64,000 bases of DNA from positions 47,964,645-48,028,644 of the forward strand of contig NC_088302.1 in the NCBI RefSeq assembly GCF_032854445.1. Reading direction: 5' to 3'. A program made the translations under genes and the position numbers. This DNA comes from Liolophura sinensis. Lineage: Eukaryota > Mollusca > Polyplacophora > Chitonida > Chitonidae. This document shows positions 48,601 to 54,600 of the stretch, in pieces. The notes below the pieces were generated by a model, which saw only the letters and a list, made by a program, of their open reading frames with translations, was not told the origin of the DNA and made no database searches. Positions within the stretch are counted from its first letter, which is position 1. Every line of letters starts with the position of its first letter.

Positions 48601-51600
48601 CAAGCCTCCGTTTGCCTCATTGTGGGAACATTGAAGGCAAGACCTTCAAGCAGGGCAACCTGAACTCCCTGACAAGCGCGCTGACTGCTTAATGCCACCG
48701 AGGCTTTAAGAATTCGCTTTAATGGGATACACAATAAGCCGAGTCAGCATTTCAGGAGTTCAGCGAGTTCACGCATATATGGATGACACAAGATGGCTCT
48801 CGAAATCTAAAGCTGTTATATGACGAGATTTTACAATACTGAATACACATCCCACACAGCCGGGTCTGTTGGTCCAATGGCGCCTTTAACAGCCTCTGTA
48901 AAATGACACCTTTCAGCGTCGTCAGTTCGCAAGAATCCCCGCCCTCTCTTGTCTCAGCCTGCATGAACTTGAGAGATTCCTGAAACACTCACTCTCTGAC
49001 TTATTGATGCCGACTGGTTAACAGTGAATGTAAACTTTCCTGGGTTAAACTCTGCATACCTAAAATTCAGCTAAGGCTAGGCATAGCCTGGACTTGCCTA
49101 TCTCTCACACCAGCCAATCAGAATTGATTCTGTATCCCTTTAAGAGGACAGGGTCGAATCACTCGAAATATCAATAAAGCAGAATTATTCCATGGTACAA
49201 AATGCTGTCCTAATGAATTGTTCAGGATGGAACCCAGTCTTTATATGTCAATAATGAAATGAGTAATATGACTTTAACACAGGGTGTATAGATTTTGTTA
49301 CCAAGACATGAATGAGGCAATCACCAACCTTTGAAGACTTCTGAAATGTGAAGCAGAGTGAATTGTCTCCCCCTGCCTGAGGTCATTTCCCGCACACCCT
49401 TCACAATCAGCTTAGCATCTTCTGTCACATCCCGAGTCTCAAACGAATTCTGACAAATTAATTCAGATTAAATATACACATTTTATCTCACTTTATACAC
49501 TATAGTCACAGTAAGCATATTTTTTAATAATTATTGCTGTCTGGAAGTCTAGTCTGAATGAGGCTTGACCTGATTTCCTTCTCTTTCTTGAAAAGATTTT
49601 CTTAAGAAAAAAAACACAACTTCAACACCTTAAAATCATTGAGACCAAGATACTGAACTCTCAGCTTCAAACACTTATTCGTGTGATCTAGAGCAGTACA
49701 AAAATACTTTGCGCAAATTTTACCTGAGATTCACATGTGTCGCAGGTAGCACCTCTGTACACGTTACACTGTGTGCGGTCAAAGTAGTTCTCCCCAAAGT
49801 ACTGGAGTATCTGAGAGCGCCGGCAGTCGGCCTGGTTCTCACAGTACCTCACCATCTGGAACAGGTTGTCCATGTGAACCTTCTTAGACTCATACGATGC
49901 ATCTGTGTTCACTGGGCAAGAAAACAGAGGACATACTACAGGCTTACTCTGTATCACCCTTCAGGATACTGATATTCTGATAATTGTATTTTGCATTATC
50001 ATTTGACGGGTTTAATGCACATATTCAGCAATATTTCACTTATTCGGCAATGCTGGTCAGGACTTGTGACAAGTAACTAATGTTGCAGTGGTTGTATAGC
50101 ATACGACATATTGCAAGGATGTGTGACACCTTGTGACACCTTAAAAAATTTACAGTCGTATAACAGAGGACATGACTACAGATGTGGTCTCAACCATCCT
50201 TGGTAGTTGTATAGCAGACGGCATATTAACTACAGGCTTATTTTCTATCATCCTTTGATGCATCATGATGTCCTGGTAGTTGTGGTACAGGATACAGTGA
50301 CTCCAGACCTACTCTCTATCATCCTGCGATGTCTCATGACATCAGGGTTGTTGTGGTACATGATACAGTGACTCCAGACCTACTCTCTATCATCCTGCGA
50401 TGCCTCATGACATCAGAGTTGTTGTGGTACAGGATACAGTGACTCCAGACCTACTCTCTGTCATCCTGCGATGCCTCATGACGTCCTGGTAGTTGTGGTA
50501 CAGGATACAGTGACTCCAGACCTACTCTCTGTCATCCTGTGATGTCTCATGACATCAGGGTTGTTGTGGTACATGATACAGTGACTCCAGACCTACTCTC
50601 TATCATCCTGCGATGCCTCATGACATCAGGGTTGTTGTGGTACAGGATACAGTGACTCCAGACCTACTCTCTGTCATCCTGTGATGTCTCATGACATCCT
50701 GGTAGTTGTGGTACATGATACAGTGACTCCAGACTTACTTTCTGTCATCCTGTGATGCCTCATGACGTCCTGGTAGTTGTGGTACAGGATACAGTGACTC
50801 CAGACCTACTCTCTATCATCCTGCGATGCCTCATGACGTCCTGGTAGTTGTGGTACATGATACAGTGACTCCAGACCTACTCTCTGTCATCCTGTGATGC
50901 CTCATGACATCAGGGTTGTTGTGGTACAGGATACAGTGACTCCAGACCTTCTCTCTGTCATCCTGCGATGTCTCATGACATCCTGGTAGTTGTGGTACAT
51001 GATACAGTGACTCCAGACCTGCTCTCTATCATCCTGCAATGTCTCATGACATCAGGGTTGTTGTGGTACAGGATACAGTGACTCCAGACCTACTCTCTGT
51101 CATCCTGTGATGCCTCATGACATCCTGGTTGTTGTGGTACAGGATACAGTGACTCCAGACCTACTCTCTGTCATCCTGTGATGCCTCATGACGTCCTGAT
51201 AGTTGTGGTACAGGATACAGTGACTCCAGACCTACTCTCTGTCATCCTGCGATGCCTCATGACGTCCTGGTAGTTGTGGTACATGATACAGTGACTCCAG
51301 ACCTACTCTCTGTCATCCTGTGATGCCTCATGACATCAGGGTTGTTGTGGTACAGGATACAGTGACTACAGACCTACTCTCTATTATCCTGCGATGCCTC
51401 ATGACGTCCTGGTTGTTGTGGTACAGGATACAGTGACTACAGACTTACTCTCTGTCATCCTGTGATGTCTCATGACATCATGGTAGTTGCGGTACAGGAT
51501 ATAGTGACTCCAGACCTACTCTCTGTCATCCTGTGATGTCTCATGACATTCTGGTAGTTGTAGTACAGGATACAGTGACTACAGACTTACTCTCTGTCAT

Positions 51601-54600
51601 CCTGTGATGTCTCATGACGTCCTGGTTGTTGTGGTACAGGATACAGTGACTACAGACCTACTCTCTGTCATCCTGTGATATCTCATGACATCCTGGTAGT
51701 TGTGGTACAGAATACAGTGACTACAGACCTACTCTCTATCATCCGGTGATACAATGACTACGAACTTACTCTCTATCATCCTGCGATGCAATGACTACAA
51801 ACTTACTCTATCATCCTGTGATGCCTCATGACATCCTGGTAGTTGTGGTACATGATACTGTGACTACAGACTTACTCTCTATCATCCTGTGATACAATGA
51901 CTACAAACTTACTCTCTATCATCCTGTGATGCCTCATGACATCCTGGTAGTTGTGGTACAGGATACTGTGACTACAGACTTACTCTCTATCATCCTGTGA
52001 TACAATGACTACAAACTTACTCTCTATCATCCTGTGATGCCTCATGACATCCTGGTAGTTGTGGTACAGGATACAGTGACTAGAGACTTACTCTCTATCA
52101 TCCTGTGATGCCTCATGACATCCTGGTAGTTGTGGTACAGGATACTGTGACTAGAGACTTACTCTCTATCATCCTGTGATGCCTCATGACATCCTGGTAG
52201 TTGTGGTACAGGATACTGTGACTACAGACTTACTCTGTAACATCCTTCGATACAGTCACTACAAACTTACTCTCTATCATCCTGTGATGCCTCACGGCGT
52301 CCTGGTAGTTGTGGTACAAGACACAGTGACTCCAGACCTACTCTCTATCATCCTGCGATGCAGTGACTACAGACTTACTCTGTAACATCCTTCGATACAG
52401 TCACTACAAACTTACTCTTTATCATCCAGTTACAGGATACAGTGACTACAGACTTACTCTTCATCATCTTGCGGTATCTCATGACATCCTAGTGCATGCA
52501 GCTGTAGCACGGGACACAGTGACTACACTGCTCCCTCAAAATAACATGCTCATCCACACCAAAAAGATTCATACCATGTTATAATCGAATCCGCACAATG
52601 TTGAATCCTGACAAGGGAGATAATTTGTAATGGCTGGAATAAATAGATATCTGAACTTGACTGATGACAGTTGTATGATACAAAATGTACACAAGAATTT
52701 CGGGTAGTTGTGTTGAGTTATCCGATTTAATAAAACAATATAGTGGAACATTATCAGGTGTAAAATGATTTACCGCGCCAAGAACTGCCAAATGAGAGTC
52801 TGTTATCTCGAGAAAGGCAAACTTTAGACCTGCATGACAAGAATGTATCGAGAATTCTTTATTTTTTTGAATGGAATAATGTATTTTTTAAGAGAACAAA
52901 CCTTAATCCATAACGCTTGACAATGTGTAAGACAACAAAGATGGTGACCACACACTGTTAGATTGCTGGACTGGTGACAACAAAACGGTCGCTCAAAAAA
53001 AAACACAAAGGAGGATTCTTGCCAAGTCATCGCAGGCTGAGCAAAGGTTACTCCAAAATGCATCTATTTCCATTTATATTTACATAACAGCTGAACAGAT
53101 TGATAATGTTTTTCAACCAAATTCCCAGCGCTCAGGCAGGCAAGCCTCCTGGCGATTTGAAAAGCACATAACCTGTGAGAAGACTTCGAATAACTCTCCA
53201 CCATTCGATGTTTTAGTAAATGTATTCTAAACTGAATGCACAAATGGGGAGGGCCATATACTAAGAGAATTCATAATTATGTGCAGAATGTCGCGCCACC
53301 AAATTACCTAAACAAGAGTGCAATCGTTGAATTTCATCAATAGAACTTTACGCTTTAGAAAATAAATGAACAACTTGGAGTCAACGGCAGAATCATGTGT
53401 GGAGGATTTTAACATCACGCAACAAGCGTGAAGGAAAGCAATTCAGCTGAAATTACATTTGTTCTTTGACACCTGCTCGAGCATGTCATTTTGTTTACCC
53501 ACGTACAGTAGGATTATGATTGTCACCACAGTTCTCATTCATCAAATTATGAATTTACATGAATAAAAACTTGATATACACTCATTATTTTTAATATTAT
53601 GGAGACGTATTTGTAACAATTTTTTACTGGTACAAAAGTCTGATTTTGCGGTGATTTGATCAGCGTAAATTTGAGGGAGCAGTGTACAAACATACTCTCT
53701 ATCATCCTGCGGTGTCTCATCACGTTCTTGTAGCTATGGTACATTGACTGCAGACATATTCTCTGTCATCCGGTGATACAGTGACTACACACTTACTCTC
53801 TGTCATCTTGTGATACAGTGCCTACAGACTTACTCTCTGTCATCCTGTGATAGTGACTATAGACTTACTCTCTATCATCCTGTAATACAGTGACTACATA
53901 CTTACTCTGTCATCCTGCTATACAGTGACTACAGACTTACTTTCTGTCATCCTGTGATACGGTGACTACAGACTTACTCTCTGTCATCCTGTGATGTCTC
54001 ATCATGTCCAGGTAGGTACAGTGCAGGATAGAGTGACCACGGACTTACTCTCTATCATCCTGTGATAGAGTGACTACGGACTTACTCTCTATCATCCTGT
54101 GATACAGTCACTACAAACTTACTCTCTATCATCCTGCGATGTCTCATCACATCCTGGTAGTTGTAGTAGAGGATACAGTGAGCCAGCAGCCCGTCCCTTC
54201 CTGCCCTGCCAGCCTCCTGGTAGTAACCTTCCACAGACTTGGGTAGGGAAAAGTGGAACACAAACCTCACATCAGGCTTGTCGATACCCATACCAAATGC
54301 AATTGTGGCACACACAACCTGAAATAATACGTAAATCAGAAGTTACCTCAATATACCTGGGGGCAAAACAGAGTCATAACAATTATAATATGGCCCATGA
54401 GAAAATCACATACAGTGCCTTCTTAAGTTAATGTAAATCTTTAGTTGCTCCTCTAAAAACAGGACAGCTGACAACACTGAGTCGTTTGTGATCAACCTTT
54501 CATTCATTGTTGTTGTTAATTTGAGAACTATCAATGTTACAAGTCCGTTTTGACCTTATTAAAGTAAAATACACAAAGTATGTCAAAAAGGTACAAAAAC

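Follow-up and report, generated by a model that had tools for sequence, protein, structure and literature searches.

The original paper on the repeats known as mirages is reportedly that of Canestro et al. from 2002. In amphioxus, mirages are minisatellite-like duplications of exon/intron boundaries, occurring on the donor as well as the acceptor side; reverse transcription polymerase chain reaction (RT-PCR) suggests that splicing is left undisturbed, and somatic length change has been reported at Adh3 (PMC3087553). The genes involved include Adh3, the globins BflGb6 and BflGb9 and others (PMC3087553), with PGBD5 and troponin C added to the list in PMC3902484. Comparable arrangements are known from the human CBS gene, which has both a 31-bp donor-side variable number tandem repeat (VNTR), c.1444_1467+7(16_21) (Lievers 2001, via PMC2630376), and a 68-bp duplication of the intron 7/exon 8 junction, 844ins68 (PMC2630376). 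Moreover, a minisatellite in IFI6 (6-16) supplies multiple splice donors according to papers citing Turri 1995, and the Rogers model, discussed in PMC3087553, attributes the gain of introns to AGGT segments duplicated in tandem in the genome. Here we analyze a stretch of 64,000 nucleotides (hereafter the window; assembly GCF_032854445.1, contig NC_088302.1, positions 47,964,645 to 48,028,644) from the chiton Liolophura sinensis, whose genome was first published under the name Liolophura japonica, since corrected to L. sinensis (PMC12441733). The window contains the BLM helicase gene, and one BLM intron consists largely of copies of the preceding exon's end together with its splice donor. A preliminary description of this array, made from the sequence, knew of no described class of such repeats, a claim not supported in view of the amphioxus mirages and the two CBS variants. 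The BLM array is a large example of a described type, extends that type to another phylum, and has many counterparts in the chiton genome. What is new relative to the literature searched is the scale, with 16 of 36 sampled arrays located at supported exon ends and an excess of the donor motif AGGTRAGT in tandem arrangement.

The BLM gene is encoded on the minus strand of the window, in exons that align serially to human BLM in three reading frames; all coordinates below for this gene refer to that strand. The exon at 54318-54123 is a true BLM helicase exon (PDB phmmer comparison with human BLM, i-Evalue 4.1e-27 for the exon), encoding a segment that ends in ..RHRRMIE and closing with AGA|GTAAGT, where the authentic 5' splice site GTAAGT (54117-54122) is identical as a hexamer to 24 downstream decoys. 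The next exon (49724-49911) starts at 49911, and the intron between the two (54122-49912) is made up of units combining exon end and donor, apart from one transposon and a decayed end. The units begin directly at the exon and its donor, and the array spans 54122-49927, from the exon edge towards the intron end. An exon-proximal block (53687-54122) holds mostly 35-37-bp units comprising 15 nt of exon and 22 nt of intron, while a distal block (50230-52524) holds mostly 71-bp units comprising 49 nt of exon and 22 nt of intron, at first of GTAAGT and then mostly of GTAGGT type. The remaining intron end (49927-50229) shows sparse, decayed unit remnants with a single donor-like GTAAGC at 49947. Tandem Repeats Finder (TRF) delimited a 71-bp repeat at 50244-52246 with 28.2 copies, and placed 37-bp arrays at 53740-54140, 52212-52468 and 51712-52038. 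The array that the preliminary description had placed at 50264-52500, with about 27 units of 71 bp, is thus real and larger than described: it starts at the exon itself, runs on towards the intron end, is interrupted by the transposon and also contains 37-bp units.

The proposed homology of the repeats to the exon end and donor was put to an alignment check and held. The consensus of the 29 units with 60-75 nt spacing behind the first exon copy is identical to the final 49 nt of the exon at 43 positions and to the initial 22 nt of the intron at 18. The exon 49-mer was matched at 36 or more of its 49 positions at 29 places in the intron, compared to a best match of 25/49 elsewhere in the window (outside 49.7-54.4 kb, both strands). 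An exon end is therefore copied as had been claimed, although with about 49 nt rather than the suggested 55, plus 8 further nucleotides, ACTGTATC, shared by the exon and the end of the unit; as a candidate microhomology seed, this octamer could be told apart from the start of the unit itself only with an outgroup. From 56 fuzzy anchor matches, 48 donor-like sites were retained, including the authentic one, after eight had been excluded by eye as non-unit donors. These comprise 25 GTAAGT sites (the authentic donor and 24 decoys), 17 GTAGGT, two other GT forms and four lacking GT, so that GT is present at 44 of the 48 and the claimed dozens of decoys with native exon context are borne out. A genome search using the donor array returned only its own two blocks, though the search skips common words and is not proof of uniqueness.

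A second array is found in the same gene on the acceptor side, within the intron that follows the BLM exon ending in ..LLYVTPEK|gtacca (59670-59783). Its units (58453-59437) are mostly 67 bp long, some 64 or 54, and each consists of a polypyrimidine tract, CAG and the first approximately 25 nt of the exon at 58451-58353. The array offers 16 acceptors, of which the last is authentic and the 15 upstream of the exon are decoys; as the acceptors were located by a CAG search, retention of CAG is by construction. The exon (58353-58451) shows conservation of its coding sequence with human BLM, which makes it the original from which the array was copied. Both boundary types are consequently duplicated in BLM, at 54122-49927 for the donor and 59437-58453 for the acceptor.

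In their arrangement the BLM arrays resemble the amphioxus mirages in that the tandem unit spans the exon/intron boundary, both boundary types are affected and many of the AG and GT dinucleotides are kept. They differ in the mollusc host, the 47 extra donor-like sites, the presence of one array of each polarity in BLM and the occurrence of further loci genome-wide. Mirages have been described in cephalochordates and the present arrays belong to Mollusca; we regard them as being of the same kind, with no claim of common descent. The donor array also has the composition of the CBS VNTR, exon end plus donor, the VNTR comprising, by its name, 24 nt of exon end and 7 nt of intron start repeated 16-21 times. 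The CBS repeat, unlike the BLM array, concerns a single human gene, has a shorter unit and is a known copy-number polymorphism, and no relation by descent is implied. For 844ins68, the distal site is strongly favored and the upstream copy removed, as would be expected for the BLM acceptor array; PMC2630376 speaks of a "donor" in this context, which we read as acceptor given the intron 7/exon 8 junction, and with two copies only this duplication is no minisatellite, unlike the BLM array. The repeat units of IFI6 and BLM alike offer alternative donors downstream of an exon, with actual use reported for IFI6. Finally, tandem duplication including splice signals is shared with the Rogers model, but in BLM an existing intron has been filled, and no frame-keeping new intron arises, as the one donor choice of 48 that keeps the frame is the authentic one. 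Our search of the open-licence literature found no account of junction arrays from a mollusc and no tally of them across a genome; a term search of the chiton genome paper and a comparative chiton paper found "tandem repeat" in neither main text, and "minisatellite" was absent from the comparative paper.

Arrays of this kind invite the suspicion that one copy was multiplied by mis-assembly, as assemblies of tandem arrays are prone to error and the high-fidelity (HiFi) read coverage of the Liolophura assembly is 14X (chiton genome paper). The mean HiFi read length of 8,347 bp, however, exceeds the 4.2-kb intron, the donor-array units are mutually diverged by many substitutions, and a diverged transposon lies inside the array, so an assembly artefact is unlikely; with the comparable pattern found at other genes, we consider it extremely improbable. 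The transposon (52526-53684) is 1.16 kb long; its ends are inverted (CACTG...CAGTG), with a TA on either flank. It has at least 61 matching pieces genome-wide, itself included, a lower bound since 40 of 80 candidates were scored, and its near full-length matches are about 71-74% identical.

Further arrays were sampled at 36 loci in the genome, 18 with the donor motif AGGTRAGT and 18 with CCAGGTGAGT. The former are 18 of the 19 loci counted among 100 of 3045 matches listed, all within the first 5.47 Mb of one chromosome (C1), one degenerate row being dropped; the latter are all 18 loci counted among 100 of 176 matches listed. At 16 of the 36, the array begins at the end of an exon supported by family homology (Pfam or PDB) and copies that end; a strict count gives 13, as L022, L052 and L055 score under the Pfam curated cut-off. 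The exon-end donor arrays with AGGTRAGT belong to genes for an ankyrin (L011), an antistasin (L013), SUFU (L016), Raptor (L018), a prominin (L026) and the iron-only hydrogenase family (L028), and to a "helicase-like protein" (L021) and a DUF3535 match (L022) located 7 kb apart, presumably in one Mot1/BTAF1-like gene. Those with CCAGGTGAGT belong to SPT3 (L048), methionyl-tRNA synthetase (L051), an MCM OB domain (L052), a GST-like protein (L055), an ephrin-receptor-like protein (L056), SRP72 (L059), RCC1 (L060) and WDR11 (L063). The exon-derived portion ranges from 10 to 82 nt across the confirmed loci, L013 excepted. As only 3 of the 16 loci have their first repeated donor at a distance that is a multiple of three, there is no sign of coding use of the repeats. 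In L013 (917-1759), the antistasin exon end recurs in 81-bp units that remain free of stops for 281 codons and encode antistasin repeats, with a donor in most units, and may represent a coding array or nascent exons. Raptor combines a donor array (L018, 1560-3935) with an acceptor array (L041, 8-285) a few kb apart, as in BLM; the exon at L041 was assigned to Raptor by a PDB match with an E-value of 9e-4.

The remaining loci divide into eight without an exon at the array edge by eye (L019, L020, L023, L024, L027, L054, L058 and L061), among them L058, where TRF found no array in the fetched piece, and twelve with a candidate exon in the form of an open frame only (L012, L014, L015, L017, L025, L046, L047, L049, L050, L053, L057 and L062). 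Pfam scans of 11 of these 20 (L012, L015, L017, L020, L025, L046, L047, L049, L053, L057 and L062) gave no convincing match. L049 and L050 are, by eye, near-identical exon-plus-array segments on opposite strands approximately 40 kb apart on C1, and resemble a junction array that was duplicated in inverse orientation.

Genome-wide, AGGTRAGT forms 3045 tandem triples with 58-88 bp spacing per 50,973 single sites (5.97%), compared to 2.56% for the composition-matched control TGARTGGA (reversed), 2.23% for GATGRTAG and 2.34% for GATRGTAG. This is an excess of 2.3-2.7 times over the three controls, counted as matches rather than loci and with controls not confined to genes. Counted by eye as loci in the first 5.47 Mb of C1, there were 19 for AGGTRAGT and 2 for GATGRTAG (one-sided binomial P 0.008 with the numbers of single sites taken into account), a comparison chosen after inspecting the lists and over a stretch defined as the span of the AGGTRAGT matches listed. 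For CCAGGTGAGT, 176 triples were found per 1839 single sites, compared to 22 per 476 for the reversed motif. No excess was seen for the donor form of BLM itself, GAGTAAGT, which gave 322 triples with a spacing of 48-78 bp against 398 for its reversal, a comparison of raw triple numbers. On the acceptor side, triples of TTTNCAG showed no excess per site (1.17% vs 1.13% for the reversed control), and a genome-wide acceptor hot spot was rejected on this basis, in a test of low power because real acceptors probably make up a small share of the motif. Among 100 of 8317 acceptor-motif matches listed, 19 loci were counted and 17 fetched, two weak ones being dropped; the Raptor locus L041 is exon-seeded, and the remainder were judged by eye only. 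At about five matches per locus, the AGGTRAGT triples correspond to approximately 580 loci and, at the 8/18 confirmed in the sample, to some 250 exon-end arrays, a rough extrapolation from the array-rich end of one chromosome (approximately 18 matches per Mb at the start of C1 vs a genome mean of 5) that covers this motif and spacing alone.

Exon definition, R-loops, nonsense-mediated decay and the protection of introns by U1 serve in what follows as general background. When BLM was translated through the next exon, the frame was kept by one of the 48 donor choices, the authentic exon-proximal site, and each of the 47 downstream choices (four of them without GT) led to a stop before the end of that exon. 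In this test the exon sequence used lacked 3 nt, leaving the frame unaffected, and the donor choice alone was varied, with no new donor-acceptor pairs inside the array. Similarly, only the last of the 16 acceptors kept the frame and any other brought a stop. As one donor in 48 and one acceptor in 16 keep the frame, functional BLM would, judging from the sequence, require the exon-proximal sites on both sides. The expectation that the array either stays silent or produces aberrant BLM was in this respect correct.

The authentic and decoy donors are difficult to tell apart by their own properties. Against the U1 end, the authentic AGA|GTAAGT has a computed pairing energy of -6.0 kcal/mol and the GTAAGT decoys range from -5.2 to -6.6, compared to -8.3 for CAG|GTAAAA and -11.6 for CAG|GTAAGT. 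The decoys, previously called near-perfect donors, are near-perfect copies, but of a middling donor. RNA structure concealing the decoys was considered and rejected, as the authentic donor was predicted to be unpaired with a value of 0.70 against a decoy mean of 0.63, with 16 of 46 decoys more open. Conservation of GT as evidence of selection was likewise rejected: across 45 units (the authentic copy and the sites at 53695 and 49947 excluded), both GT columns carried a non-major base in two units each, within the range of neighboring columns, many of which are as well kept. With GT columns this ordinary, the sequence gives no hint of selection for or against the decoys. The visible difference between the authentic and the decoy donors is their position relative to the exon.

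These observations bear on whether the array acts as a poison switch, in which decoys would be used at a meaningful rate, the resulting stops would trigger nonsense-mediated decay and array length would tune BLM dosage. The 47 downstream donors and 15 decoy acceptors all yielding a stop, and the likeness of authentic and GTAAGT decoy sites in computed pairing and accessibility, are what such a switch would call for, and the downstream repeat units of IFI6 are reportedly employed as donors (PMC4526556). The ordinary GT columns and the normal splicing reported from RT-PCR in amphioxus (PMC3087553) nevertheless speak against it, as does the fact that it is unneeded where a fixed exon-proximal choice accounts for gene integrity, and we consider a switch unlikely. 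U1 also shields introns from premature polyadenylation, and the array could be retained for another role such as a landing strip for the U1 small nuclear ribonucleoprotein. Dozens of U1-complementary sites and the genome-wide excess of the consensus donor in tandem triples would fit this role, but 23 of the 48 sites are not GTAAGT (17 GTAGGT, four without GT and two others), the donor columns are not favored and the acceptor array would require another role, making this alternative highly doubtful.

We instead find it probable that the array in BLM represents a tolerated junction minisatellite of the mirage type, with decoys that lose to the exon-proximal site and are removed with the intron. 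A short tandem duplication would have captured the exon end, donor and intron start, and subsequent expansion by unequal exchange or slippage would have filled most of the intron. The spliceosome would pick the exon-proximal donor, and the copies would leave with the intron and drift, presumably neutrally; normal mRNA should still be made since the first copy retains an intact exon and donor. A second duplication would have occurred likewise at the BLM acceptor, where the exon-proximal site, there the last, must be chosen. In favor of this reading are the homology of units and exon, the frame kept by the exon-proximal sites alone, the ordinary GT columns, the like anatomy at 16 of the 36 loci, the spacings seldom divisible by three, the paired arrays of Raptor and the RT-PCR results in amphioxus.

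Several points weigh against this reading. The exon would be 196 nt long with the first donor and 233 nt with the second, lengths too similar for exon definition alone to obviously decide, and exon-proximal splicing in BLM is itself something we infer from reading frames. In IFI6, downstream repeat units reportedly act as donors (PMC4526556). Furthermore, 20 of the 36 fetched loci are without a homology-supported exon, all 20 of which were counted as unconfirmed. Lastly, neutrality combined with tolerance predicts no excess of AGGTRAGT triples beyond the controls, unless gene regions are repeat-prone. A stronger view, which we put forward tentatively and as the lesser possibility, is that minisatellites arise preferentially at strong splice donors in this genome, affecting, by rough extrapolation, a few hundred genes through duplication linked to transcription or splicing, with strict choice of the exon-proximal among many equal sites providing tolerance. 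R-loops, stalled polymerase or U1-bound nascent RNA might then promote tandem duplication at donors.

Several other repeats were observed in the window. A dispersed repeat of approximately 180-240 bp is found at 37650-37890, 42960-43203, 59830-60010 and 62017-62216, one copy lying close upstream of a BLM exon. Eleven tandem 132-bp units with 94% matches (43661-45129) adjoin the 3' part of BLM, and a 223-bp tandem duplication (4273-4720) with 100% matches is either very recent or an assembly effect. By eye, no exon end was found at these two or at the array at 38698-38962, and Pfam scans around 43661-45129 and 38698-38962 pointed to none. Elsewhere on the contig shared with BLM (C8:37880506-37891931; L064, L065), eight consecutive haemocyanin beta-sandwich matches occur within 11.4 kb, in keeping with a molluscan genome.

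Mirage-type repeats are thus not restricted to lancelets, as a mollusc has them at both boundary types. The genes affected are in part core genes, including BLM, Raptor, SRP72, SPT3, WDR11, methionyl-tRNA synthetase and the presumed Mot1/BTAF1-like gene, plus further loci. Each locus pits from several up to dozens of nearly identical splice sites against one another in a natural competition, by which adherence to the exon-proximal choice, the influence of distance and the use of cryptic sites could be measured, and the arrays permit testing of splice donors as mutational hot spots for tandem duplication.

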